Shown piece by piece: positions 896 through 57,312 of a stretch of DNA of 64,000 bases. The stretch covers positions 43,139,642 through 43,203,641 of the forward strand of contig OX637394.1 in NCBI GenBank assembly GCA_951799425.1. Direction: 5' to 3'. Under the pieces are notes generated by a model. The model made no database searches. It saw nothing but the letters and a program-made list of their open reading frames with translations, and was not told where the DNA came from. The stretch comes from Ilex aquifolium. Taxonomy: Eukaryota; Streptophyta; Magnoliopsida; Aquifoliales; Aquifoliaceae. Position numbers and translations under genes: made by a program. The first letter of the stretch is position 1. The number at the start of each line of letters is the position of its first letter.

Positions 896-1404
896 AAGTT
901 TAATCTTTGGGTCAGCTACAGACCGAGTTTGAAAATCCATAACTGAATTTTTCATACAAATATAAAATTTGAAAAAACTTTAAACTATTTTTTCCAAATT
1001 TATCTCGTCAAAGCCCCTCGTACCCCTTACCAATGAGTCCGTTATAATATGAGGAGTTTGGCACGCAGTTGGGAAGAAAGGACTTAAATTTTTGGACTTG
1101 GCTTCGGTACCGAAAAGGTAAAAATCGGTACGATACCGAAAAATTAAAAGAACTGAATGCTCGCCACGTGTATACTTCAAAATTCATAAAAATCTTTAAC
1201 CGGTTTCACCGGTTTCGATATATACTTTAAAAATTTTAAAATGATGATTATTCATTATATTTAAACATGAAATCAAAATATAAGAAAAAATGTACAAGTT
1301 AATGAGTGAACATGAACATAAACCCCTATACACTTTAAAAATAAGTGATAATAGAAATTAAAATAATAATTATTTATTATATTTAAACATGAAATAAAAA
1401 TATA

Positions 1405-1640
1405 ACAAAATCAAAATTATCATCATCATTTATTAAAATTAAGATTGAGATTATAGTAAAAAAAAAAACTGAGACGACGAAGAAGAAGATGGAGTTGCAA
1501 AATTATTTTTGTTCCTATGAATAGATTTTAAATCATCATCATTTATTAAAACTAAGGTTGAGATCATACTAAACTTATATTTAAAAAAAATAAATACATT
1601 TTTTGTTTATTTGCTTAAATTACACTGGTACCATTAACAG
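1405..1640. repeat. Outer AT-rich module, left arm
   Basis: A module of roughly 120-150 bp reads 'aagattgagattatagta', a poly-A stretch, then 'gaagatggagttgcaaaatt'. It occurs twice here, again at about 2840-3120, and as the reverse complement at about 12120-12420 and 13800-14060. The copies vary mainly in homopolymer length. It forms the framework between the 21-bp arrays. Confidence 0.7.
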
Positions 1641-2690
1641 TAAAATTGGTTAAGATTATCACTTTTTTGGTTAATAATACCACTTTTTTGGCTGAAATTA
1701 CCACTTTTTTGGATAACATTACCACTGGTTAAAAGTACCTCTGTTTTGGTTAAGATTACCACTTTTTTTGTTAAGGGTACTATTTTTTTGTTTAAAATTA
1801 ACACTGTTTCGATAAGAGTACCACTTTTTTGGTTAACATTACCACTGTTTTGGTTAAGAGTACCACTGTTTTGATTAAGAGTACCACTTTTTTGGTAAAG
1901 ATTACAACTTTTTTGGTTAACAATACTACTGTTTTGATTAAGAGTACCACTGTTTTGGTTAAGATTACCACTTGTTTGGTTAAGATTACAACTTTTTTGG
2001 TTAAGAGTACCACTTTTTTGGTTAACAATATCACTGTTTTGATTAAAAGTACCATTTTTTGGGTTAATATTACCATTTGTTTGGTTAAGAGTACCACTTT
2101 TTTGGTTAATTTTACCACTGTTTTGGTTAAGAGTACCACTTTTTTTGTTAACAATACCATTTTTTTGGTTATGATTATAACTTTTTTGGTTAAGATTATA
2201 ACTTTTTTGATTAAAGGTACCACTTTTTTGGTTAATTACCACTGTTTTTTCTAAGAGTACCTTTTTTTTGTTAACATTATCACTGTTTTGATTAAGAGTA
2301 CAATTGTTTTGGTTAAGATTACCACTCTTTTGGTTAAGATTACAACTGTTTTGGTTAACATTACCACTATTTTGGTCAAGAGTACCACTGTTTGGTTAAC
2401 ATTACCATTGTTTTGGTTAAGAGTACCACTGTTTTGGTTAAGAGTACCACTGTTTTGGTTAAGATTACCACTCTTTTGGTTAAGATTACAACTTTTGTGG
2501 TTAACATTACCACTGTTTTGGTTAAGAGTACCACTGTTTTGGTTAAGATTACCTTTTTTTGGTTAAGATTACAACTTTTTTGGTTAAGATTACCACTTTT
2601 TTGGTTAAAATTACAACTTTTTTGGTTAAGAGTACCACTTTTTTGGTTAACAATACCACTGTTTTGATTAAAATGTAATAATTTTAACTT
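1641..2690. repeat. 21-bp tandem repeat array, left arm
   Basis: About 50 degenerate copies of a 21-bp unit, consensus 'ttggttaagagtaccactgtt', where the ends of units vary between aagag, aagat and aacat. The period is a multiple of three and the unit lacks stops in several frames, so long artefactual open frames cross it on both strands (heptapeptides such as NQNSGTL or VKSTTVL). A shorter block of the same unit lies at about 3140-3275. It is mirrored by 12585-13750. Confidence 0.9.
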
Positions 2691-3278
2691 AACCCCAAAA
2701 AATGGCAACGTAAAATAGTGGTGAACTTAGATAATCTAATCTAACATTCTAATATTTTTAACTTAAATTTAATGTCAATCAACAACCCCAAATATTATAA
2801 TTTTTTTAGTATATTTTTATTTAGTTTTAAATAAGATAAATAATCATCATTTATTAAAACTAAGATTGAGTGGTAGTCTTTTCATAAAAAAAAAAAAAAA
2901 AACTGGGAAGATGAATGAGAAAGATTAAAGTATGAAGTTGCAGAATTATTTTTATCTTATGAGATTATAAAATCATCATAATCATTTATTAAAACTAAGA
3001 TTGAGATTATAGTAAATTCATAAAAAAAAAAACTCACACGACAAAAAAGAAGGAATAAAGAAGAAGATGGAGTTGCAAAATTAAAACGAAGGTTAAGATT
3101 ATAGTAAACTTATATTTAAAAAAAATAAATACACTTTTTTTTTGTTAAGATTATCATTTTTTTTATTAAAATTACAAGTAAAACTTTTTTGGTTAACAAT
3201 AACATTTTTTTGGTTAAGATTATCACTTATTTGGTTAAGAGTGCCACTTTTATTATTAAAATTACCACTTTTTTGGAG

Positions 3279-3660
3279 TGCTCATAGCGATCCACTATTC
3301 ACTTAAGGATCAAGTTTGCAAACCAATCTGGATTGGATCCCTACTATTCTTTGAGCGCTCAAACCAGCGATCAAGCTTGTCCAATAAATTTAACTTATAC
3401 CCCTAAATTATCACATTTTTTAAATTTTTTCATCATATTTTTCATATTACACCATCAACTATATTATTAGTTTCATATTACCCCAAATGTTTTTACATAT
3501 TTTAATTTAACACCGGTCTACCAAAAATTATAACTTTGTTATAATTTATTTAGCGTGAAAAATGTAATAATTTTAACTTAACCCAAAATATAACCCCCAA
3601 AAAAAGAAATTTTACCCAAAAAATTGTGGCAGTATGTAACATTGTAATAGCCAAAAAAAA
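3279..3660. repeat. Single-copy spacer of the left arm
   Basis: A non-tandem segment lying between the 21-bp array and the AT-rich satellite. It carries the octamer palindrome GAGCGCTC near 3355, and its exact-looking reverse complement occurs at 11606-11985. Compared with the right copy it has two small insertions, about 11 bases after 'agcgatcc' and about 17 bases after 'acccccaaaa'. It is the best anchor for measuring arm divergence. No reading frame. Confidence 0.8.
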
Positions 3661-6600
3661 TGTGCTAAACTTTAACATATAATTTTATACAATTAAAATT
3701 TAATTTATCAAATTAACATTCAATTCATCAAATTAACACCAAATTAACAATAAATTTCATCAAATTAACATTCAATTTTTTCTAATAAGCATTTAATTCA
3801 CTAAATTAACATTCAAATTCAACTAGTTAACATTAAATTAATCAAATAAACTTTTCATTTCATTCAATTAATACTCAATTCATCAAATTAACATTCTAAT
3901 TATCAAATTAACTTTCGAATTTATCAAATTGACATTCAATTTCATCAAACTAACATCTAATTTATCAAATCAACACCAAATTAACATGTAATTTCATCCA
4001 ATTCAAATTTAATTTATCAAATTAACACCAAATTAACATTCAATTCGTCAAATTAATATTCAATTCATCAAATTAACATCAAATTAACAATCAATTTCAT
4101 CTAATTAACATTCAATTTTTTCTAATAACCATTTAATTCACCAAATTAACATTCAAATTCAACTAGTTAACATTAAATTAATCAACTAAACTTTCAATTT
4201 CATTCTATTAATACTCAATTCATCAAATTAACATTCAAATTATGAAATTAACATTCTAATTTATCAAATTGACATTCAATTTCATCAAATGAACAGCAAA
4301 TTAACATTCAATTTATCAAATTAACACCAAATTGACAATAAATTTAATTTCATTAACATTCAATAATTTCTAATAACCATTTAATTCGTTAAATTAACAT
4401 TCAAATTTAACTAGTTAATATTAAATTAATCAAATAAACTTTCGATTTTATTCAATTAGCACTCAATTCATCAAATTAACATTCAGATTTGTCAAATTGA
4501 CACTAAATTTTATCAAATTAACAAGTAATTTCATCCAATTAAAATTTAATTTATCAAATTAAAATTAAATTAAGATTCAATTCATCAAATTAACACTAAA
4601 TTGACACTCAATTTAATGTAATTAACAATCAATTTTTTCTAATAAGCATTTAATTCACTAAATTAACATACAAATTCAACTAATTAACATTAAATTAATC
4701 AAATAAACTTTCAATTTCATTCTATTAACACTCAATTCATCAAATTAACATTCAAATTATCAAATTAACATTCCAATTTAGCAAATTGACATTCAATTTC
4801 ATCAAATAAATACCAAATTAATACGTAATTTCATCAAATTAAAATTTAATTTATCAAATTAACATCCAATTCATCAAATTAACACCAAATTAACAATCAA
4901 TTTTATTTAATTAACATTCAAATTTTCTAATAAGCTTTTAATTCACCAAATTAACATTCAAATTCAATTAGTTAATATTAAATTAATCAAATAAACTTTG
5001 AATTTCATTCAATTAGCACTCAATTCATCAAATTAACATTCAGATTTGTCAAATTGACAATAAATTTCATCAAATTAACATGTAATTTCATACAATTAAA
5101 ATTTAATTTATCAAATTAAAACTAAATTAACATTCAATTCATCAAATTAACACTAAATTAACACTTAATTTCACCTAATTAACATTCAATTTTTTCTAAT
5201 AATCATTTCATTCACTAAATTAACATTCAAATTCAACTAGTTAACATTAAATTAATCAAATAAACTTTCAATTTCATTATATTTACACTCAATTCATCAA
5301 ATTAACATTCAAATTATCAAATTAACATTCAAATTTAGCAAATTGACAATGAATTTCATCAAATAAATACCAAATTAACATGTAATTTCATCCAATTAAA
5401 ATTTAATTTATCAAATTAACACCAAATTAACATTCAATTCCTCAAATTAACACAAAATTAACAATGAATTTCATTTAATTAACATTCAATATTTTCTAAT
5501 AAGCTTTTAATTCACCAAATTAACATTCAAATTCAATTAGTTAACATTAAATTAATCAAATAAACTTTTAAATTCATTCAATTAGCACTCAATTCATCAA
5601 ATTAACATTCAGATTTGTCAAATTGACATTAAATTTAATCAAATTAACATTCAATTTCATCCAATTAAAATTTAATTTATCAAATTAAAACTAAATTAAC
5701 ATTCAATACATCAAATTAACACTAAATTAATACTCAATTTCATCTAATTAACATTCAATTTTTTATAATAAGCATTTAATTCGCTGAATTAACATTCAAA
5801 TTCAACTAGTTAACATTAAATTAATCAAATAAACTTTCAATTTCATTCAATTACCACTCAATTCATTAAATTAACATTCAGATTTATCAAATCGACATTA
5901 AATTTCATCAAATTAACATTCAATTTCATCCAATTAAAATTTAATTTATCAAATTAAAACTAAATTAACATTCAATTCCTCAAATTAACACTAAATTAAC
6001 AATGAATTTCCTCTAATTAACATCCAATTTTTTCTAATAAACATTTAATTCACTGAATTAACATTCAAATTCAACTAGTTAACATTAAATTAATCAAATA
6101 AATTTTCAATTTCATACTATGAACACTCAATTCAACAAATTAACATTAAATTTATCAAATTAACATTCCAATTAACATCTAATTTCATTCAATTAAAATT
6201 TAATTTATCAAATTAACACTAAATTAACATTCAATTCATCAAATTAACATCAAATTGACAATAAATTTCATGTCATTAACATTCAATATTTTATAATAAG
6301 CATTTAATTCGTTAAATTAACATTCAAATTTAACTAGTTAACCTTAAATTAATTAAATAAACTTTCAATTTCATTCAATTAGCACTCAATTCATCAAATT
6401 AACATTCAGATTTGTCAAATTGACATTAAATTTCATCAAATTAATATGTAATTTCATCCAATTAAAATTTAATTTATCAAATTAAAACTAAATTAACATT
6501 AAATTCAACAAATTAACACTAAATTAATACTCAATTTCAAGTAATTAACATTCAATTTTTTCTAATAAGCATTTAATTCACTAAATTAACATTCAAATTC

Positions 6601-8470
6601 AACTATATAACATCGAATTAATCAAATAAACTTTCAGTTTCATTCAATTGACACTCAATTCATCTAATTAACATTCAGATAATCAAATTAACTTTCAGAT
6701 TTATTAACGTGACATTCAATTTCATCAAATTAACATGTAATTTCATCAAATCAACGACAAATTAACATGTAATTTCATGCAATTAAAATTTAATTTATCA
6801 AATTAAAACATAATTAACATTCAATTCATCAAATTAATATTCTATTCATCGAATTAACTCCACAATAACGCTGAATTTCTTCTAATTAACATTCAATTTT
6901 TTCTAATAAGATTATAATTCACCAAATTAACATTCAAATTCAATTAGTTAACATTAAATTAATCAAATAAACTTTGAATTTCATTCAATTAGAACTCAAT
7001 TCATCAAATTAACATTCAGATTTGTCAAATTGACATTAAATTACATCAAATTAACATTGAATTTCATCCAATTAAAACTAAATTAACATTCAATTCATCA
7101 AATTAACAATAAATTAACACTAAAATTAATCTAATTAACATTCAATTCTTTCTAATCAGCATTTAATTCACTAAATTAACATTTAAATTCAAATAGTTAA
7201 CATTAAATTAATCATATAAACTTTCATTCTCATTCTATTTACACTTAATTCATCAAATTAACGTTCGAATTATCAAATTAGCATTCCAATTTAGCAAATT
7301 GACATTCAATTTCATCAAATAAATACCAAATTTACATTTATTTTCATCCAATTAAAATTTAATTTATCAAATTAATACCAAATTAATATTCAATTCATCA
7401 AATTAAGACAAAAATTAACAATCAATTTCATTTAATTAACATTCAATATTTTCTAATAAGCTTTTAATTCACCAAATTAACATTCAAAATCAATTAGTTA
7501 AAAATAAATTAATTAAATAAACTTTGAATTTCATTCAATTAGCACTCAATTCATCAAATTAACGTTCAAATTTGTCAAATGGACCTTAAATTTCATCAAA
7601 TTAACATTCAATTTCAACCAATTAAAATTTAATTTATCAAATCGACTAGTTAACATTAAATTAATCAAATAAACTTTTAATTTCATTCTATTAACACTCA
7701 ATTCATCAAATTAACGTTCAAATTATCAAATTAACATTCCAATTTAGCAAATTGACATTCAATTTCATCAAATAAACACCAAATTAACATGTAATTTCAT
7801 CCAATTAAAATTTAATTTATCAAATTAACGCCAAATGAACATTCAATACATCAAATTAACATTCAAATTTTCAAATAAGCATTTAATTCACTAAATTAAC
7901 ATTCAAAATCAACTAGTTAAAATGAAATTAATCAAATAAACTTTCAATTTCATTCCATTAAAACTCAATTCATCAAATTAACATTCAAATTATAAAATTA
8001 ACACTCAGATTTATGAAATTGACATTAAATTTGATCAAATTAACATGTAATTTCATCAAATTAACACCAAATTAACTTGTAATATTATCCAATTAAAATT
8101 TAATATATCAAATTAACACCAAATTAACATTCAATTTATCAAATTAACACTCAATTTCATCTAATTAATATTAAATTTTTTCTAATAAACATTTAATTTC
8201 CTAAATTAGCATTCAAATTCAACTAGTTAATATTAAATTAATCAAATAAACTTTTAATTTCATTCAATTAACACTCAATTTATCAAATTACCGTTCAAAT
8301 TATTAAATTAAAAGTTAGATTTATCCAATTGACATTCAATTTCTTGTAATTTCATCAAATAAAAAACAAATTAATATATAATTTTATCCAATTAAAAATT
8401 AATTTATCAAATTAACACCAAATTAACATCAAATTCATCAAATTAACATTCAATTTCGTTTAATTAACTT
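3661..8470. repeat. AT-rich satellite, left arm (20-bp unit, ~275-bp higher order)
   Basis: Built from units like 'atcaaattaacattcaattc' (about 20-21 bp) arranged in a longer repeat. The marker 'tctaataagcatttaattc' recurs about every 250-340 bp (for example near 3780, 4120, 4640, 4926, 5196, 5496, 5763, 6035, 6291, 6558, 6902, 7153, 7450), giving roughly 16 higher-order units. No genes. Orientation flips at the axis near 8470. Confidence 0.9.
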
Positions 8471-11400
8471 TCAATTTGATGAATTCAATGTTAATTTGGT
8501 GTTCATTTAATAAATTAAATTTTAATTGCGTGAAATTACATGTTAATTTGATGAAATTGAATGTCAATTTGATAAATCTGAATGTTAATTTGATAATTTG
8601 AATGTTAATTTGATGAATTGAGTATTAATTGAATGAAATTGAAAGTTTATTTGATTAATTTAATGTTAATTAGTTGAATTTTATTGTTAATTTAGTGAAT
8701 TAAATGCTTATTAGAAAAAATGAATGTTAATTAGATAAAATTGATTATTAATTTGGGGTTAATTTGATGAATTGAACGTTAATTTGGTGTTGATTTGATG
8801 AAATTACATGTTAATTTGATGGAATTGAATGTCAATATGATAAATTTGATAATTTGAATGTTAATTTGCTGAATTTAGTGTTAATATAATGAAATTGAAA
8901 GTTTATTTGATTAATTTAACTTTAACTAGTTGAATGTGAATGTTAATTTAGTGAATTAAATGCTTATTAGAAAAAATTGAAAGTTAATTAGAAGAAATTG
9001 AGTTTTAATTCGGTGTTAATTCGATGAATTGAATATTAATTTGATGAATTGAATGTTAATTTGGTTTTAATTTGATAATTAAAATTTTCATTGGATGAAA
9101 TTACATATTAATTTGGTGTTGATTTGATGAAATTGAATGTCAATTTGATAAATCTGAAAGTTAATTTGATAATTTGGATGTTAATTTGATGAATTGAATG
9201 TTAATTGAATGAAATTGAAAGTTTATTTGATTAATTAAATGTTAACTAGTTGAATTTAATTGTTAATTTAGTAAATTAAATGCTTATTAGAAAAAAAAAT
9301 GAATGTTAATTAGATGAAATTGATTGTTAATTTGATGAATTGAATGTTAATTTGATAAATTAAATTTTAATTGTGTAGAAAATTAAATGTTAATTTTGTG
9401 TTGATTTGATGAAATTACATGTTAATTTGATGAAATTAAATGTCAATTTGATAAATCTAAATGTTAATTTGATAATTTGAATGTTAATTTGATGTATTGA
9501 GTGTTAATTGAATGAAATTGAAAGTTTATTTGAATAATTTAATGTTGTTAACTAGTTGAATGTGAATATTAATTTATTGAATTAAATGCTTATTAGAAAA
9601 AATTAAATGTTAATTAGATGAAAATTGAGTATCAATTTAGTGTTAATTTGATGAATTGAATGTTAGTTTTGTTTTAATTTGATAAATAAAATTTTAATTG
9701 GGTGAAATTATATGTTAATTTGATGAAATCTAATGTCAATTTGACAAATCTGAATGTTAATTTGATGAATTGAGTGCTAATGGAATGAAATTGAAAGTTT
9801 ATTTGATTAATTTAATGTTAACTAGTTAAATTTGAATGTTAATTTAACGAATTAAATGGTTATTAGAAAATATTGAATGTTAAAGAAATGATATTTATTG
9901 TCAATTTGGTGTTAATTTGATGAATTGAATGTTAATTTGGTGTTAATTTGATAAATTAAATTTTAATTGAATAAAATTACATGTTAATTGGAATGTTAAT
10001 TTGATAATTTCAAAGTTAATTTGATGAATTGAGTGTTAATAGAATGAAATTGAAAGTTTATTTGATTAATTTAATGTTAACTAGTTGAATTTGAATGTTA
10101 ATTTAGTGAATTAAATGCTTATTAGAAAAAATTGAATGTTAAATAGTTGAAATTGAGTGTTAATTTAGTGTTAATTTGATGAATTGACTGTTAATTTAGT
10201 TTTTATTTGATAAATTAAATTTTAATTGGATGAAATTGAATGTTAATTTGATGAAATTTAATGTCAATTTGACAAATATGAATGTTAATTTGATGAATTG
10301 AGTGTTAATTGAATGAAATTCAAAGTTTATTTGATTAATTTAATGTTAACTAATTGAGTTTGAATGATAATTTGGTGAATTAAAAGCTTATTAGAAAAAA
10401 TTGAATGTTAATTAAATGAAATTGATTGTTAATTTGGTGTTAATTTGATAAATTAAATTTTAATTGGATTAAATTACATATTAATTTTGTATTTATTTGA
10501 TGAAATTGAATGTCAATTTGCTAAATTGAATGTCAATTTGCTAAATTGCAATGTTAATTTGATAATTTGAATGTTAATTTGATGAATTGAGTGTTAATAG
10601 AATGAAATTGAAAGTTTATTTGATTAATTTAATGTTAACTAGTTGAATTTGAATGTTAATTTAGTGAATTAAATGCTTATTGGAAAAAATTGAATGTTAA
10701 TTTCATGAAATTGAGTGTCAATTTAGTGTTAATTTAATGAATTGAATGTTAATTTAATTTTAATTGGATGAAATTACTTGTTAATTTGATAAAATTTAAT
10801 GTCAATTTGACAAATCTGAATGTTAATTTGATGAATTGAGTGCTAATTGAATGAAATCGAAAGTTTATTTGATTAATTTAATATTAACTAGTTAAATTTG
10901 AATGTTAATTTAACGAATTAAATGGTTATTTGAAATTATTGAATGTTAATGAAATTAAATTTATTGTCAATTTGGTGTTAATTTTATGAATTGAATGTTA
11001 ATTTGATGAAATTGAATGTCAATTTGATAAATTGGAATGTTAATTTCATAATTTGAATGTTAATTTGATGAATTGAGTATTAATAGAATGAAATTGAAAG
11101 TTTAGTTGATTAATTTAATGTTAACTAGTTGAATTTGAATGTTAATTTGGTGAATTAAATGGTTATTAGAAAAAATTGAATGTTAATTAGATGAAATTGA
11201 TTGTTAATTTGATGTTAATTTGATGAATTGAATATTAATTTGACGAATTGAATGTTAATTTGATACATTAAATTTAAATTGGGTGAAATTACATGTTAAT
11301 TTGGTGTTGATTTAATAAATTAGATGTTAGTTTGATGAAATTGAATGTTAATTTGATAAATTCGAAAGTTAATTTGATAATTAGAATGTTAATTTGATGG

Positions 11401-11605
11401 ATTGAGTATTAATTGAATGAAATGAAAAGTTTATTTGATTAATTTAATGTTAACTAGTTGAATTTGAATGTTAATTTAGTGAATTAAATGATTAGAAAAA
11501 ATTGAATGTTAATTTTATGAAATTTATTGTTAATTTGGTGTTAATTTGATGAATTGAATGTTAATTTGATAAATTAAATTTTAATTGTATAAAATTATAT
11601 GTTAA
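8471..11605. repeat. AT-rich satellite, right arm (inverted)
   Basis: Reverse-complement orientation of the left satellite. The marker now reads 'aattaaatgcttattagaaa' and recurs near 8700, 8955, 9280, 9590, 10110, 10390, 10670, 11160 and 11490, about 11 higher-order units. Fewer units than the left arm means copy number has changed independently since the inversion formed. Confidence 0.9.
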
Positions 11606-11985
11606 AGTTTAGCACATTTTTTTTGGCTATTACAATGTTACATACTGCCACAATTTTTTGGGGGTTATATTTTGGGTTAAGTTAAAATTATTACATTTTT
11701 CATGCTAAATAAATTATAACAAAGTTATAATTTTTGGTAGACCGGTGTTAAATTAAAATATGTAAAAACATTTGGGGTAATATGAAACTAATTATATAGT
11801 TGATGGTGTAATATGAAAAATATGATGAAAAAATTTAAAAAATGTGATAATTTAGGGGTATAAGTTAAATTTATTGGACAAGCTTGATCGCTGGTTTGAG
11901 CGCTCAAAGAATAGTAGGGATCCAATCCAGATTGGTTTGCAAACTTGATCCTTAGGATCGCTATGAGCGCTCCAAAAAAGTGGTA
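11606..11985. repeat. Single-copy spacer of the right arm
   Basis: Reverse complement of 3279-3660, including 'gagcgctcaaagaatagt' and 'gtgctaaactttaaca' read on the minus strand. It is near-identical apart from the two short indels described for the left copy. No gene. Confidence 0.8.
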
Positions 11986-12584
11986 ATTTTAATAATAAAA
12001 GTGGTACTCTTAACCAAATAAGTGATAATCTTAACCAAAAAAATGTTACTGTTAACCAAAAAAGTTTTACTTGTAATTTTAATCAAAAAAGTGATAATCT
12101 TAACAAAAAAAAAGTGTATTTATTTTTTTTAAATATAAGTTTTCTATAATCTTAACCTTCGTTTTAATTTTGCAACTCCATCTTCTTCTTTATTCCTTCT
12201 TTTTTGTCGTGTGAGTTTTTTTTTTTATGAATTTACTATAATCTCAATCTTAGTTTTAATAAATGATTATGATGATTTTATAATCTCATAAGATAAAAAT
12301 AATTCTGCAACTTCATACTTTAATCTGTCTCATTCATCTTCCCAGTTTTTTTTTTTTTTTATGAAAAGACTACCACTCAATCTTAGTTTTAATAAATGAT
12401 GATTATTTATCTTATTTAAAACTAAATAAAAATATACTAAAAAATTTATAATATTTGGGGTTGTTGATTGACATTAAATTTAAGTTAAAAATATTAGAAT
12501 GTTAGATTAGGTTATCTAAGTTCACCACTATTTTACGTTGCCATTTTTTTGGGTTATATTTTGGGTTAAGTTAAAATTATTACA

Positions 12585-13750
12585 TTTTAATCAAAACAGT
12601 GGTATTGTTAACCAAAAAAGTGGTACTCTTAACCAAAAAAGTTGTAATCTTAACCAAAACAGTGGTACTCTTAACCAAACAGTGGTAATGTTAACCAGAA
12701 AAGTTGTAATCTTAACAAAAAAAAGTGGTAATCTTAACCAAAACAGTGGTATTCTTAACCAAAAAAGTTGTAATCTTAACCAAAAAAGGGGTAATCTTAA
12801 CCAAAACAGTGGTACTCTTAACCAAAACAGTGGTAATGTTAACCACAAAAGTTGTAATCTTAACCAAAAGAGTGGTAATCTTAACCAAAACAGTGGTAAT
12901 ATTAACCAAAACAATGGTACTCTTAACCAAAACAGTGGTAATGTTAACCAAACAGTGGTACTCTTGACCAAAATAGTAGTAATGTTAACCAAAAAAGTTG
13001 TAATCTTAACCAAAAGAGTGGTAATCTTAACCAAAACAGTTGTACTCTTAATCAAAACAGTGGTAATGTTAACAAAAAAAATGGTACTCTTAGAAAAAAC
13101 AGTGGTAATTAACCAAAAAAGTGGTACCTTTAATCAAAAAAGTTGTAATCTTAACCAAAAAAGTTATAATCATAACCAAAAAAATGGTATTGTTTACAAA
13201 AAAAAAGTGGTACTTTTAACCAAAATAGTGGTAAAATTAACCAAAAAAGTGGTACTCTTAACCAAACAAATGGTAATATTAACCCAAAAAGTGGTACTTT
13301 TAATCAAAACAGTGGTATTGTTAACCAAAAAAGTGGTACTATTAACCAAAAAAGTTGTAATCTTAACCAAACAAGTGGTAATCTTAACCAAAACAGTGGT
13401 ACTCTTAATCAAAACAGTAGTATTGTTAACCAAAAAAGTTGTAATTTTTACCAAAAAAGTGGTACTCTTAACCAAAACAGTGGTATTCTTAACCAAAACA
13501 GTGGTAATGTTAACCAAAAAAGTGGTACTCTTATCGAAACAGTGTTAATTTTAAACAAAAAAGTGGTACCCTTAATCAAAAAAGTTGTAATTTTAACCAA
13601 AAAAGTTATATTCTTAACCAAAAAAGTGGTAATCTTAACCAAAACAGAAGTACTTTTAACCAGTGGTAATGTTATCCAAAAAAGTGGTAATTTCAGCCAT
13701 AAAAGTGGTACTATTAAGCAAAAAAGTGATAATCTTAACCAATTTTACTG
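12585..13750. repeat. 21-bp tandem repeat array, right arm
   Basis: About 55 copies of 'aaccaaaacagtggtactctt', the inverse of the left array, flanked by the same AT-rich modules at 12120-12420 and 13800-14060. The uninterrupted frame across 12538-13548 (336 codons) is explained by the period of 21. It switches between NQNSGTL-type and VVLLTKT-type heptads wherever a one-base indel shifts phase, so it is not evidence of a protein. Confidence 0.9.
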
Positions 13751-14210
13751 TTAATGGTACCGGTGTAATTTAAGCAAATAACCAAAAAATGTATTTATTT
13801 TTTTTAAATATAAGTTTAGTATGATCTCAACCTTAGTTTTAATAAATGATGATGATTTAAAATCTATTCATAGGAACAAAAATAATTTTGCAACTCCATC
13901 TTCTTCTTCGTCGTCTCAGTTTTTTTTTTACTATAATCTCAATCTTAATTTTAATAGATGATGATGATGATTTTGATTTTATAATCTCTTGAAGGGATAA
14001 AAATAATTCTGCAACTCTATATTCTTCTTCTTCGCCTGAGTTTTTTTTTTTTTTTTTTGAATTTGTAAGCCAGTGGGTAGCCGGTAAAAAGTTGTAGAGT
14101 TGATCAACGGTGGAAGTTCTTCCTTATATATCTACCGTTCATTTTTTTTTTCGGTACCATACCGAAAACTGGCTGGCGGTACCGTAGTCGAACCCTAAAT
14201 TTTTAGGACC

Positions 14211-20344: not shown

Positions 20345-20490
20345 TGGGAGGGTGGGTGACTGGGTGTTGACTAGATGAAGATATTGACGCGCCTCAAGCT
20401 AAAGGCATGGTTAGATGAAAGATTAGCCATGTGATTTTGATTGAGCCGCGTCAATATCTCCTTTTTTGTGGCTCCCCCTCGCACCCAAAT
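20345..20490 (+). ncRNA. MIR171: MIR171/170-type microRNA precursor
   Basis: The 3' arm at 20438-20458 carries a 21-nt mature-like sequence beginning TGATTGAGCCGCGTCAATAT, the miR170/171 family form. The 5' arm at 20380-20400 (GATATTGACGCGCCTCAAGC) pairs with it over about 18 of 21 positions, leaving a loop of about 37 nt. The stem continues imperfectly outward (GGGAGGGTGGGTGAC against GGCTCCCCCTCGCACCC). In plants this family directs cleavage of HAM/SCL6-class GRAS transcription factor mRNAs; none is encoded here. The strand follows the mature sequence orientation. Precise precursor ends are not determined. Confidence 0.88.
20438..20458 (+). ncRNA. Predicted mature miR171/170
   Basis: 21 nt on the 3' arm of the hairpin, 5' U, matching the family core GATTGAGCCGCGTCAATATC. 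It differs from the copy at 50289-50309 at two core positions: CGCGTC here against CGTGCC there. Confidence 0.85.
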
Positions 20491-34548: not shown

Positions 34549-34685
34549 AGATTGACTTAAAAATTAGACTTGATAATCTCAACCATTGAATAGGTAGTAG
34601 ATGTCAATAAATGTTGGGACCCACAATAAAATTCATTGTTATAATTATTGAGTCTAATTTTTAAGTTCATATAACATTACTCTTA
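34549..34685. mobile_element. MITE immediately upstream of the MYB gene
   Basis: The left 'agaataatgttagattgac' and 'ttaaaaattagactt' are inverted at the right as 'gagtctaatttttaagttc' and 'atataacattactctt'. It is the same family as 14758-14935. It ends about 190 bp before the MYB start codon, so it probably lies in the promoter or next to the 5' untranslated region. Confidence 0.7.
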
Positions 34686-34876
34686 ACAATATTGACGTGA
34701 TAGAACAATTACACCAAATATTTCCTCCACATTGTGAACTTTGGTCCCACCCCAATTCTCTCTCTCCTTTCATTACTCATCTCTCTCAATATCTTCCCTT
34801 TCTCTCCCGTTATTTCTTTCAAGCAAGACTAAGGAGGGGACAGGATAGTTCAGAAAAAAACGAAAGAAAGAGGAAG

Positions 34877-35356
34877 ATGGCCTTGGATGGCGATGGTGGG
34901 TCAAGGAGTGGCAGTGCAGAGACGCGGAAGAGCGGAGGCTGGTGCCAGACGCTCAAGAAGGGGCCGTGGACGGCGGTGGAGGACTCGATCTTGATGGAAT
35001 ACGTGAAGGAGCATGGTGAAAGGAACTGGAATTCAGTTCAGAGAAATTCTGGGTTGGTGAGGTGTGGGAAGAGTTGTAGGCTGAGATGGGTTAACCATCT
35101 GAGGCCTAATCTCAAGAGAGGTACATTTTCTGATGCAGAAGAGAGGCTCATCGTTGAGCTTCACGCTAAGTTCGGTAACAAATGGGCTCGCATGGCTGCT
35201 CAGGTTGTTTATTGTCATTTCTCTTTCTCTCTCCTTGTTCTTCAATTTTTTTTTTTTTTTTTTGATTTATTTGTGCTTTATATGGTAACGAGTTACAAAT
35301 TTCAATGTTTTGATGATTTCATCTGTTTTATGGTGTTTTCATAATGACTCTCTCTC

Positions 35357-50204: not shown

Positions 50205-50345
50205 GGTCAGAGTTATAATCAGTTATACCGGGATATTGGTGCAGTTCAATGAGAAAGTCATTCTCGAAATGCTCTGAGTCCCACTTTTTGATTGAGCCGT
50301 GCCAATATCACGTGTTACTTCTCCCAAAACTTATAACCTTCAGAC
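50205..50345 (+). ncRNA. MIR171: MIR171 microRNA precursor
   Basis: The 3' arm holds TTGAGCCGTGCCAATATCAC from 50292, the miR171b/c-type mature sequence. The 5' arm GGATATTGGTGCAGTTCAAT (from 50231) pairs with it with G:U wobbles and about two mismatches, over a 37-nt loop. The stem extends outward through 'agttataatc' and 'aacttataacc'. This miRNA directs cleavage of HAM/SCL GRAS mRNAs in meristems. TC-rich leader-like sequence (49880-50090) precedes it. The short frame over it (50092-50277) is not considered coding. Confidence 0.92.
50292..50312 (+). ncRNA. Predicted mature miR171
   Basis: 21 nt starting TTGAGCCGTGCC and ending ATCACG. A three-nucleotide-shifted form from 50289 (TGATTGAGCCGTGCCAATAT) is also plausible, as the family shows both registers. 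Confidence 0.88.
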
Positions 50346-52720: not shown

Positions 52721-55700
52721 TCAAAAGGCAGCAGTCCACACAGCATTCTCACCTTCGCCGCATCGCTGATGGACCTCTTTAATCCTCTCAGCAGACCTGC
52801 AAATCCCACTGCAGCTCCAGTCAAATGAAGCAACACAGATGTTGCCCGCCTGTGCCTTCCACTCGCAATCTGCAGTGACAAGTTGCATCAAACTCACAAA
52901 ATATGTCTTTGCAGTTCCTAATCGGTATGTGACAAATTTTCATATATGGGTTTATCTTCGCTCCATGCACCCCAACTTGAAGTGGTATGAGCTACATACT
53001 GGTTGCAGTCCATGTCATGATGTATGAGGTTTTTCTTTTTGAAAGGTATCATGAAGTATGAGTTAGTAAGGTAGATGACAATCTTTGTGCCATGACAACC
53101 ATAGCCTCTATCCCCTGACAACAAGAGATAGTTTTGCAGAAGTGAAGCGAAATGGCAAACAGGAAGACCCCATAGTTGGGTTAAAAGCTTGGTTGAGTTG
53201 AGTAGCTCAAGTGATCTTTCCTTTTTTCACTAGGCTCTAAGTACATACTTTCAAGGTCTGTGTGATAAATCATACCAACTTTCCAAAGTAGAATAAATCA
53301 TATGCCGTTTTTAAGATCAACTCAAATTCAGAAGGTTTCCATTTTCCCTATCGAAGACAACAAAACAGGAATAGCATGGTAATTATTTTCATGAACTTCA
53401 AAGTTTACCTGGTGGGGTTCCACAACATAGTCTCCGATCATCAATATGCTGCACATCGAGCCCAATAAACCAAGATCCCAAAGATACATCCTCGTTAGCA
53501 TACTTGTGCAGTACATGCCTGAAACAATTACAAAAACAAAATGACATGAGTGCAGTGAGACAATGTCAAGCAACGATAGTATCCCGATAATAGTTTATCC
53601 TCTTAATTAACCTCAAATAAAAAATGAAACTTAACTGGTTTATTGAAATATAACTAGCCAAATCTTTTGAAATAGCATATAACTGTCCTGTAGCGTGACG
53701 GAAATACTTGTTTCCTGCCTCCCCAAACTTCCAATATTCTGGTTCATGGTATCTCACTCCTCTGTTCCATGGAATAAAAGTAAAGATAGTATAAGCCAAA
53801 GCAGGTTCTCAATATTTAGTTTAGGGTAAATTACAATTTATACCTTAAAGGATGCACCTAATTCCTATTTGATCCTTGAAATTCCAATTGCAGCAATCAA
53901 AACCTTAAGAGTTTTAATTGAGTTTCAATTTAGTTCCAACATCAAAACTCACCAATTTATTATGACAAAATAGTCTTTTGTGACCAACACATGACTTGAG
54001 TATATTTGTCTAGTGAAAGATTTGTTATGTATAGGCTAAAAAACCTTACTTTATTTTATCCGATTTTGAGGAAAAATAAGGATAACAAACCCAAAAAAAA
54101 TAATATAGAGTGAGAAATTGAGAAATATTGGGAGATGGAGAGATATTTTTTGTTGGACAAATATAACCTTATGGGCAAGTATTACAACGTTTTTTTATCA
54201 GAACAAATTTAATAGATCAAGATAGAATGACTGAATTAAACTTAGTTAAAACTTGATGGATGTAATTATATAGACATTATGTGCATATTTTAAGGGTTTA
54301 AATTGTAAATTACCCTTTAGTTTCATGTAACAATTTAAGAAAAAAATGACTTACTTTTGAGCAAGGACGGGACCAGATTTCATGCATCCAATATATACCC
54401 GTGGTTTTCTCCGATATCTAGCTAAAGTTTCTCCCAGTGTAGCTGCAATAGAAATTAAAATTACTTTGGACTTGACAAAAGGAAAATAATTTATAAACAA
54501 GCAATCCATTGATATGACTACTAAGCAGAAAACTGGAGGTGTTAGACGTATTCTCATTCTCTCTCTCTCACGAGAAACAACTTATCAAATATGGATAAGA
54601 ACTTAGATGAACACAGACATTGACATTTCCTGATGGGGTTGGTATTTGCAAGGTGTAGCAAATTGAGCGTGTTTTGAATCAAAGTCTTGGAACTTAAGCC
54701 TGGGAACGTCAATGTAGAAATATACTAATTACCTATATTCACATGAACATCATCGTCAACTTTGATATAGAACTCTGCATCCCATAAAGCAACAGCAGCT
54801 GCAAAATATGTCCTTGTCTTAGCTGACAATTCAAGGTACCCCTCAACATGATCCTGCTCAAATAGCATGAACGCAAACATGTTAACTTTTATTGTACAGA
54901 AATAAAATAGAGCACTGTCCGTTGCCACGGTGTACAATAGAACTGGAAAAGAACAGGATACGAGTATCACCAGTCTCAAAATATCGCCATGCTTTTTGTC
55001 CTCTGCTTCAATAGCTCTATCCAATATACCACCAACTGTGGCACTGGTAATAAAAAAAAACCAATTCATTATTTTAATCAGCATTTGTGAGCAGTTGTGA
55101 AGTCTATGTAACCCATACTTTCATTCTTTAAATGGACCTGAGATTCAATAAAATTATTTTCTAGCAATAGACATCATCATGTAAAAGCATTCTGCAGGAG
55201 ATGGCAACTTTCAGCCAATAAGCCTAACTGCCTGACATAAAAGAATTCCGAGTGAACTCCAAATAGGCTTAAATGTTTTGGTGCACAAATAGCTTAGAGA
55301 GGCATGTGGAAGACTGTTTTGTACAAACACTGGATGAAATCAGACATTGAAGGGAAATAGAACCCACCCATGACCAATGACAAAGCGTACAATAATCCCC
55401 TTCTCTTCCTCCAACTTTTTCCGCTTTTCTCCTATTTTCAGTTTTCCAGATAATCAAAAATAGGATATCAGTTCCAAACAAACAACTAAAATGGAAGGAG
55501 TATCTATCGTTGGGGAAAAGAAAAATGATGGATCATTTAATGAACCTTGTGGCATCCAGGTAGCACGAACAGAATCTCTTCTTTTTCGGCTGCTAAAAGC
55601 AGTGTTGACTCCTATAACCATAAAATATTTCCTTTTCCCAGATGAACCAGTGTTCATGTCTTCTGACAGAGGAGAACCGCTAAGGATAGACTCTTGTGCT

Positions 55701-57312
55701 GCCCTTGCAGCAGCTAATTCCAACTCTAAATTTGAAATAGTTTTATCCAATGTCCTACATCCAATGTGCAATGATGTTATGCATTCAGGCTAACCAGAGA
55801 TCAAATAAAGAGACCAGCCATGGGTAATCTATATGGAAAATAAAGAACAAGCAAAACTTACTGTATGGCATGATGAGTCCTAGACACTTCCCCAAAAATA
55901 TCTTTGGATTCACGCTTAACATCCTTGTTATACAATTAGAGGGAACCATCCAATCAGATTAACATGTATGATTGGTAAAGAGGAACACAAAGGAAAGAAA
56001 AAAAAAAAACGTTGCTTGTAGTGCTGTCCACATGAACAATAAGTAGCATTATTAAACAAAATTAAGAGAAGAGTGGAGATACTTACAATATTTGGATCAC
56101 AACCTTCTGAAACTAACTTTAACCTGTCAGCTTCTACTGCAGTGGTCCTTGTGATACCTTTAGATTCAGGCACCATCCACATTCTGTTAACAATTGTTTT
56201 TAGTTACTATAAACCCACCATATTTCAAAAATTAGTAGCCTCAACAATCATTTTAGCAGTGCCTTATCCAATTACATTTCGAACAAGAAAAATTATTGTA
56301 AGTATACCAAGATTGCAAACAAAGTCTCGAATTCTAAGATTGCTAAACAACAGCAGAATTGCAGTCAAGAAAATTGCACAATCCGTTGCCTGATACAAAA
56401 GTTTTAAAGAAAAAAAAAATTGTACTGGTAGTTCTTTGGTGCGAATAAAATCTCAAAAGGGATTATACAGTTAGAGCTACCAGTAGAGAAATAAGGGTAT
56501 GGGATTGATTGCAGATGTCAGGGGCATTGCAGCCCATTAATAACGATATGGGCGTGAAACGTGGTTAAACGATATATAAATTTAATAAATACGCAGATTA
56601 TGGCATCAGAAGCTGAGGCACACTTTCAATGATGATAATCAAATGGCAGAAAATTGTGTCTAAGTAGTTAAAACTAGGCAAATTTCAATTAACAGCCAAA
56701 TTTAAACACGAAAGAAGGGAAACATACTCAACTCAATAAAACCTTGTCCCAACTTGTTTGCTGTAGACTATATAAATCCTATACTTTCATTGTGGTCTAT
56801 CAGGGACATATTTTCTGTTATATCACAAGTTTTCATATGATTTCTTTTACTATTTTATTCAATGTTAATTTTGGTTTAAAACATATATGATTGGCATCCC
56901 TATCAAGAATACCAATTTAGATCTATTGACCTTTACCAGCAAGTGGGCAATTTGATATAAAGGAATCATAACAAAATGCAATGAACACAGAGAGAGAGAG
57001 AGAGAGACCCAGAATCCAAATGTCAAAAATTCAAGAAACAAAATTCTTGAAATTATTTACTACTGTTTCATCACAGAACTCATACCCAATTCACAAAAAT
57101 TCCAAAATTAACAGTTAATGATGAAAATTACAACAGAATGCCATTAAGAGAAAGTAATTACTGAAAGTTCAAGAAAAACAAGAACTTGTGATGGGATAAT
57201 ACCGATTAGTGAAGAGCATTCCTACACAAAAGCTTCCTAGACAAAGCAAAAGAGCCCATTTTTTAGGTATAACACTTCTTGCAGCTGGCTCTCCTCTGCT
57301 CTTGACAGACAT
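52721..57312 (-). CDS. Beta-1,3-galactosyltransferase, GT31 family
   Basis: Golgi type II glycosyltransferase adding beta-1,3-galactose to glycan or arabinogalactan acceptors; the exact acceptor is unknown. Minus-strand exons: 57312-57203, 56183-56087, 55923-55862, 55754-55546, 55431-55368, 55043-54971, 54853-54733, 54442-54355, 53761-53636, 53518-53409, 52869-52721, all GT-AG and in phase, 402 residues. A cytosolic tail [18 protein letters not shown] is followed by a membrane anchor at about 19-35 ([16 protein letters not shown]). A DUF4094-like stem reaches about residue 110. The GT31 domain holds [34 protein letters not shown], the metal-binding DDD at 238-240 (VDDDVHVN), GCMKSGPVL and [19 protein letters not shown]. 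The Cys-rich C-terminus is CCGTPPDCEW and CSGICRS. Length and order match plant B3GALT proteins and no lesion is seen. One oddity is Gly instead of the usual Ser at the exon 5/6 junction (IGHG). Confidence 0.95.
53819..54319. mobile_element. TIR MITE in galactosyltransferase intron 8
   Basis: Ends TTTAGGGTAAATTACAATTT and AAATTGTAAATTACCCTTTA are inverted repeats bounding about 500 bp between exons 8 and 9. Both adjacent splice sites are intact. No coding. Confidence 0.75.

Follow-up and report, generated by a model that had tools for sequence, protein, structure and literature searches.

A 64,000-bp stretch of the Ilex aquifolium (holly) genome, hereafter the window (contig OX637394.1; C4:43139642-43203641 in an assembly of 800 Mb and 103 contigs), contains a 13,102-bp element at positions 1094-14195. 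With a probability of about 0.88, this element is a non-autonomous foldback transposon of the Mutator-like element (MULE) superfamily. The assignment follows from its defined ends, a 9-bp target-site duplication, a family of copies, an uninterrupted insertion site for the copy on contig C15, two near-identical copies elsewhere, and relatives that share its ends and bear a transposase. The window copy was probably moved in trans by the transposase of these relatives. The foldback MULE is a known kind of element; this one is distinct in its size, in having two arrays and a spacer on each arm, and in its large same-ended transposase-bearing partners. Positions without a contig or locus name are those of the window.

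Structure of the element

Long inverted arms make up most of the element, as in other foldback transposons, with positions 1407-13980 mirrored within 1094-14195. The left arm (forward strand) is composed of module A (1407-1645), a 21-bp tandem array (1646-2671), a spacer with copies elsewhere in the genome (2672-3671) and an AT-rich satellite of ~20-21-bp units that runs up to the axis (3672-8480). The right arm (reverse strand) continues with the satellite (8481-11605), the spacer (11606-12586), the 21-bp array (12587-13742) and module A (13743-13980). In a global alignment of the two arms, counted over aligned letters with gaps excluded, identity is 98.3% for module A, 97.5% for the 21-bp array in register, 98.9% for the spacer and 94.5% for the satellite. 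The left array is longer than the right, which leaves 1,708 gapped columns in the satellite alignment. The arms are thus unequal (left ~7.4 kb, right ~5.7 kb; per-module agreement 94.5-98.9%), and their tandem repeats differ in number, which is also typical of foldback elements.

An earlier sequence-only reading had described a mirrored 13-kb structure, and this structure is real, with self-alignment, tandem-repeat search, composition and arm alignment in agreement. Self-alignment pairs 1646-6745 with 13621-8531 at 87% and, in register, 1655-2671 with 13691-12671 at 93%, and across the axis the GC skew rises from roughly -0.7 to roughly +0.7. That reading had placed the structure at 1080-14210. 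The end motifs and the duplication instead delimit the element at 1094-14195, and the left terminal region (1094-1406, forward strand) and the right terminal region (13981-14195, reverse strand) have no mirror on the opposite side. The forced identity of these outer 313 and 215 bp is 78.7%, at the level of 20 shuffles (mean 77.8%). The terminal bases alone agree (14 of the first 19), forming a short and imperfect terminal inverted repeat of the sort that MULEs carry. A higher-order satellite period of 275 bp had also been proposed; the best-scoring period is 269 bp, with 248, 300 and 310 bp also present. The two tandem arrays of each arm appear unrelated, as had been suggested. Their units reach a cyclic identity of 11/21, which is equalled by 71% of 5,000 shuffles, and a common origin of the two therefore has no support. 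No transposase lies inside the window copy, and the open reading frames of the window fall outside the element except for frames within the arrays.

Ends, target-site duplications and copies

The window copy is flanked by identical 9-bp target-site duplications, TAAATTTTT, at 1085-1093 and 14196-14204. A genome search with positions 1040-1640 found 19 places, the window counted, where the match reaches the query's end, and 17 further places (group B) that match its outer part only. The left terminal region is the sole part that group B shares with the window copy; other family members, group B included, match it at 93-99% in windowed hits. Apart from the window itself, matches start at query positions 37-60, mostly 54-55. 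The exact left end was read from fetched loci, at each of which the flanks differ. Right ends recovered by searches are of two types, the window type and a diverged C15 type. Fourteen copies had seemed to be one-armed; this was wrong for most of them, since a probe from the C15 right end gave right ends for 12 of the 14. The right end of the C12 copy was located by pattern search, and none was found among the listed matches for C10:987329.

Target-site duplications were tested in 25 left/right end pairs, consisting of the window and 24 others, 7 of which belong to group B. An exact 9-bp duplication is present at the called ends of 12 of the 25, the window among them, within the range of about 8-10 bp found for MULEs. 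No exact 9-bp match occurred in 600 mismatched pairs, and none of the 25 pairs matches at 10 bp. The further copies with target duplications that the sequence-only reading had proposed to look for were thereby found.

The C15 copy is inserted within a dispersed repeat. When its flanks were joined with one copy of the duplication, 40 of 40 listed places matched across the junction at 89-91% over nearly all 473 bases, as expected of an uninterrupted site. Recent movement is indicated by the copies at C3:6.72M and C5:42.43M, which are near-identical and differ in their flanks and in their duplications (GGCAACTGT and TAAATTGTA). Four fetched and partly overlapping stretches of the C3 copy, aligned to the C5 copy, show 4, 7, 6 and 7 substitutions over 4,024, 3,982, 3,951 and 2,068 columns. 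The end motifs, the 9-bp duplications, the uninterrupted site of one copy and the many copies together bear out the idea of a foldback element.

Relatives that bear a transposase

The left end motif (at most 3 mismatches) has 212 matches in the genome versus 2 for a reversed-pattern control, and the right end motif (at most 2 mismatches) has 199 versus 17. Pairing was based on the 100 left and 100 right matches listed, with a partner sought within 60 kb. Among the listed left ends, 55 have a convergent right end, 2 have one in the wrong orientation and none has one on the outer side. The convergent pairs are 51 bp to 49.6 kb long, with many at 10-15 kb. At the shortest, C17:27893556-27893606 and C7:20164727-20164800, the motifs lie 51 and 74 bp apart, as if the interior had been nearly all lost.

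A gene encoding FAR1, MULE and SWIM domains, interrupted by one in-frame stop, lies at locus L073 (C3:43.40M), 7.5 kb from a group B left end. The first 524 residues of this transposase gene, used as a query, gave 82 scored matches genome-wide, and long open frames are present in many of them. Twelve of the 55 listed convergent pairs, 16.6-49.6 kb long, contain one of the 23 best FAR1-MULE-SWIM matches, as expected for a MULE family in which same-ended relatives bear the transposase. The homologues within these pairs are 93-95% identical to the query, and all are transcribed towards the left end. Of 24 tabulated transposase places, the other 12 lie outside any listed pair. Three of these are near a left end (C3:43.40M, C1:3.58M and C13:24.97M, where the left end deviates from the pattern). 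At C13:24962958-24991829 the duplication, TTCAATCAA, is exact, and the interior contains a MULE domain. The relative at C12:19847353-19879650 carries the left arm of the window copy (left terminus 95%, spacer 96%) and contains a transposase homologue in an open frame of 837 amino acids.

The 12 transposase-enclosing pairs are very large for MULEs, and nested insertions or segmental duplication are possible. Two pairs, C1:39617585-39654005 and C2:51395334-51431754, each measure 36,421 bp between motifs. In literature searches aimed at giant MULEs, none of the titles and abstract openings listed described such elements.

A second conserved sequence, matching PF20167 ("putative plant transposon protein"), is found at L073:1-1500 (C3:43391900-43393399). 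Among 39 tabulated related places, 16 lie inside a left end within 15 kb and in the same orientation, none lies on the wrong side, and 23 are near no listed left end. At C5:31853059-31868827, seven consecutive matches to the PF20167-bearing stretch extend over ~16 kb, possibly through tandem amplification.

Variation among copies and a possible origin of the arms

The satellite and the 21-bp array of the C15 copy occur in the same order on both sides. Near-perfect arms are a trait of the window copy's subfamily, because the C15 arms are far less alike. Later copying from arm to arm would fit the near-perfect arms of the window copy, and the right spacer, 98.9% like its own left spacer, is consistent with such copying. 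In an arm tree, the left arms of the window copy and of the C5, C3 and C4_13 copies form a clade with support of 0.97; the right arms of the same four are drawn together, not among the nodes above 0.9. Exchange between arms may have recurred. Arrays akin to the window's 21-bp array are present at L073 (~2430-3530, ~75%) and at locus L068 (301-650). Units of 162-164 bp stand beside the left end in all four group B loci examined, and the genome search shows repeated matches to parts of the left subterminal region within single loci.

From these comparisons, a sequence of events can be proposed. A relative like that at C12:19847353-19879650, which shares the left arm and encloses a transposase homologue, would have lost its interior, and the left arm would then have been copied in inverted orientation beside the right end. 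The resulting unit would have spread through the genome, and slippage or unequal exchange would later have altered the array lengths. For each movement, transposase made elsewhere would recognize the shared terminal regions and relocate the element through a cut-and-paste reaction with a stagger of 9 bp.

Evidence against and alternative explanations

Several observations weigh against the foldback MULE. For 13 of the 25 end pairs, the sequences at the called ends are not exact duplicates. Two of these (C8:3.81M and C4:48.80M) become exact, by inspection, when the right end is shifted by 2 bp, and three (C6:1.75M, C16:10.38M and C18:13.47M) differ at two bases; the remaining eight are ambiguous, including C4:13.14M of the window type. 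In the joined-flank search for an empty site of the window copy, none of 41 matches crosses the junction. The joined flanks matched the two flanks themselves and, over roughly the first 340 query bases, a dispersed repeat. This repeat (window ~694-1033), 81-86% alike in many places, stops shortly before the element. The foldback is less perfect in the C15 copy, where the 21-bp arrays agree at only ~79-81% and no mirrored spacer was seen. The arm tree gives no clean division between left and right arms, with those of C8_17.6, C1_2.07 and C4_2.97 failing to separate cleanly. The giant relatives are known from end motifs and homologue matches, with interior sequence from L073 alone, and the 12 transposase-enclosing pairs are defined by end motifs and not by target duplications. 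The putative action of the transposase on these ends is deduced from sequence comparison.

The long arms and arrays may have been retained as transposition enhancers, for example as extra, hypothetical binding sites for the transposase. This is a tentative proposal, and the strongest of the alternatives. Numerous copies fall at 10-15 kb, some of them recent, the arrays recur in other family members, and a similar idea has been discussed for tandem terminal inverted repeats (PMC3310237) and for foldback arrays (PMC4079207), as far as the available parts of those accounts go. However, on inspection the terminal motif was not seen in the window arrays.

Somewhat less probable is that the foldback acts as a natural silencer of its own family, in which a transcript crossing the axis would form hairpin RNA and yield small interfering RNAs (siRNAs) against relatives, like Mu killer of maize. 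The 801 nt around the axis have a predicted RNA fold of -328 kcal/mol, whereas 20 shuffles average -128 (z of -22), and 1,975 of the 2,192 matched bases of module A, the array and the spacer lie in perfect runs of at least 21. The arms hold 2,166 distinct 21-mers able to pair perfectly, 45 of which are present in the transposase-bearing locus L073. Yet no 21-mer of the arms recurs in the transposase stretch L073:5224-7513, so no inverted copy of that transposase gene sequence, such as Mu killer has, was found. Moreover, the pairable 21-mers are absent from 5 of 10 group B terminal loci, and the left terminal region common with group B falls outside the mirrored part. A hairpin-siRNA role is possible and would be directed at the arrays.

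A broader scheme is more doubtful still. A giant autonomous MULE family, whose members often span 25-37 kb and carry a FAR1-type transposase plus, close to their left end, PF20167 as a second conserved gene, would spin off hairpin-armed satellites of 10-15 kb that use its transposase, and axis-crossing transcripts would send siRNAs at the arrays in the giants as a self-made brake.

An immobile structure, produced by an assembly artefact or by a single inverted segmental duplication involving a satellite region, is very improbable: the window copy by itself could look so, and its empty site was not found, but 9-bp duplications flank both ends, many copies share them, the C15 site is uninterrupted, and assembly duplication is unlikely because similarly built copies elsewhere have target duplications of their own.

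Rest of the window

A search for transfer RNA genes in the window gave no match. Rfam gave four matches, all MIR171 and all outside the element; two MIR171 precursor matches, at 20370-20470 and 50222-50321, are ~30 kb apart. A Myb DNA-binding domain is found at 34658-35341 (forward strand), and galactosyltransferase and DUF4094 matches are found at 54728-55789 (reverse strand).

Relation to known elements

The closest described builds are Tm1 and Tetris, and the comparisons here extend as far as the accessible parts of the cited accounts. Tm1 is a Mutator/Foldback family of root-knot nematodes with arms of ~14-bp units and a Phantom-type transposase (PMC3169594). Like the holly element, it has target duplications of 9 bp, composite arms whose tandem repeats vary in number, a short asymmetric stretch at each end beyond the inverted repeat, and carriers of a transposase within the same family. 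Unlike Tm1, the holly element is associated with a FAR1-type homologue, has two kinds of array and a spacer on each arm, and totals 13 kb (PMC3169594). Tetris of Drosophila virilis, assigned to Mutator by its 8-10-bp duplications, is likewise a non-autonomous foldback with internal tandem repeats; its account gives no known transposase-bearing partner, whereas the holly element has same-ended partners (PMC4079207). The element had been called unusual. Composite tandem-repeat arms are known in foldback elements, whereas its size and layering are unmatched in those accounts (PMC3169594, PMC4079207).

Among plants, MuTAnT of Medicago and FARE of Arabidopsis are foldback MULEs, as is the holly element, but 90% of MuTAnTs are only 200-300 bp long, and they target TA repeats (PMC4486113). 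MULEs with multiple terminal inverted repeats are similar in having duplicated terminal sequence and amplified copies with target duplications; these repeats are tandem, in contrast to mirrored long arms (PMC3310237). Mu killer is also a MULE-derived inverted duplication with the potential for kilobases of hairpin RNA, but it duplicates part of the transposase gene (PMC3440606). A 16-kb mobile element of Kochia that bears FHY3/FAR1 resembles the holly relatives as a large plant element in which a FAR1-SWIM gene is accompanied by other genes, and differs in that no foldback arms are seen in its description and in being half the size of the 36-kb holly relatives (PMC6808082). It illustrates that large size is possible for FAR1-bearing plant elements. 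According to the part of a review available, the Pack-MULEs of one study never exceeded 7 kb (PMC6431247). The holly family suggests that FAR1-type plant MULEs can far exceed the usual size. It also links a very large foldback element to same-ended transposase carriers in one genome, a link missing for Tetris in its available account (PMC4079207). The series of copies, among them the C12 relative that has this left arm and encloses a transposase homologue, makes it possible to follow how foldback arms, and arrays within transposons, arise.

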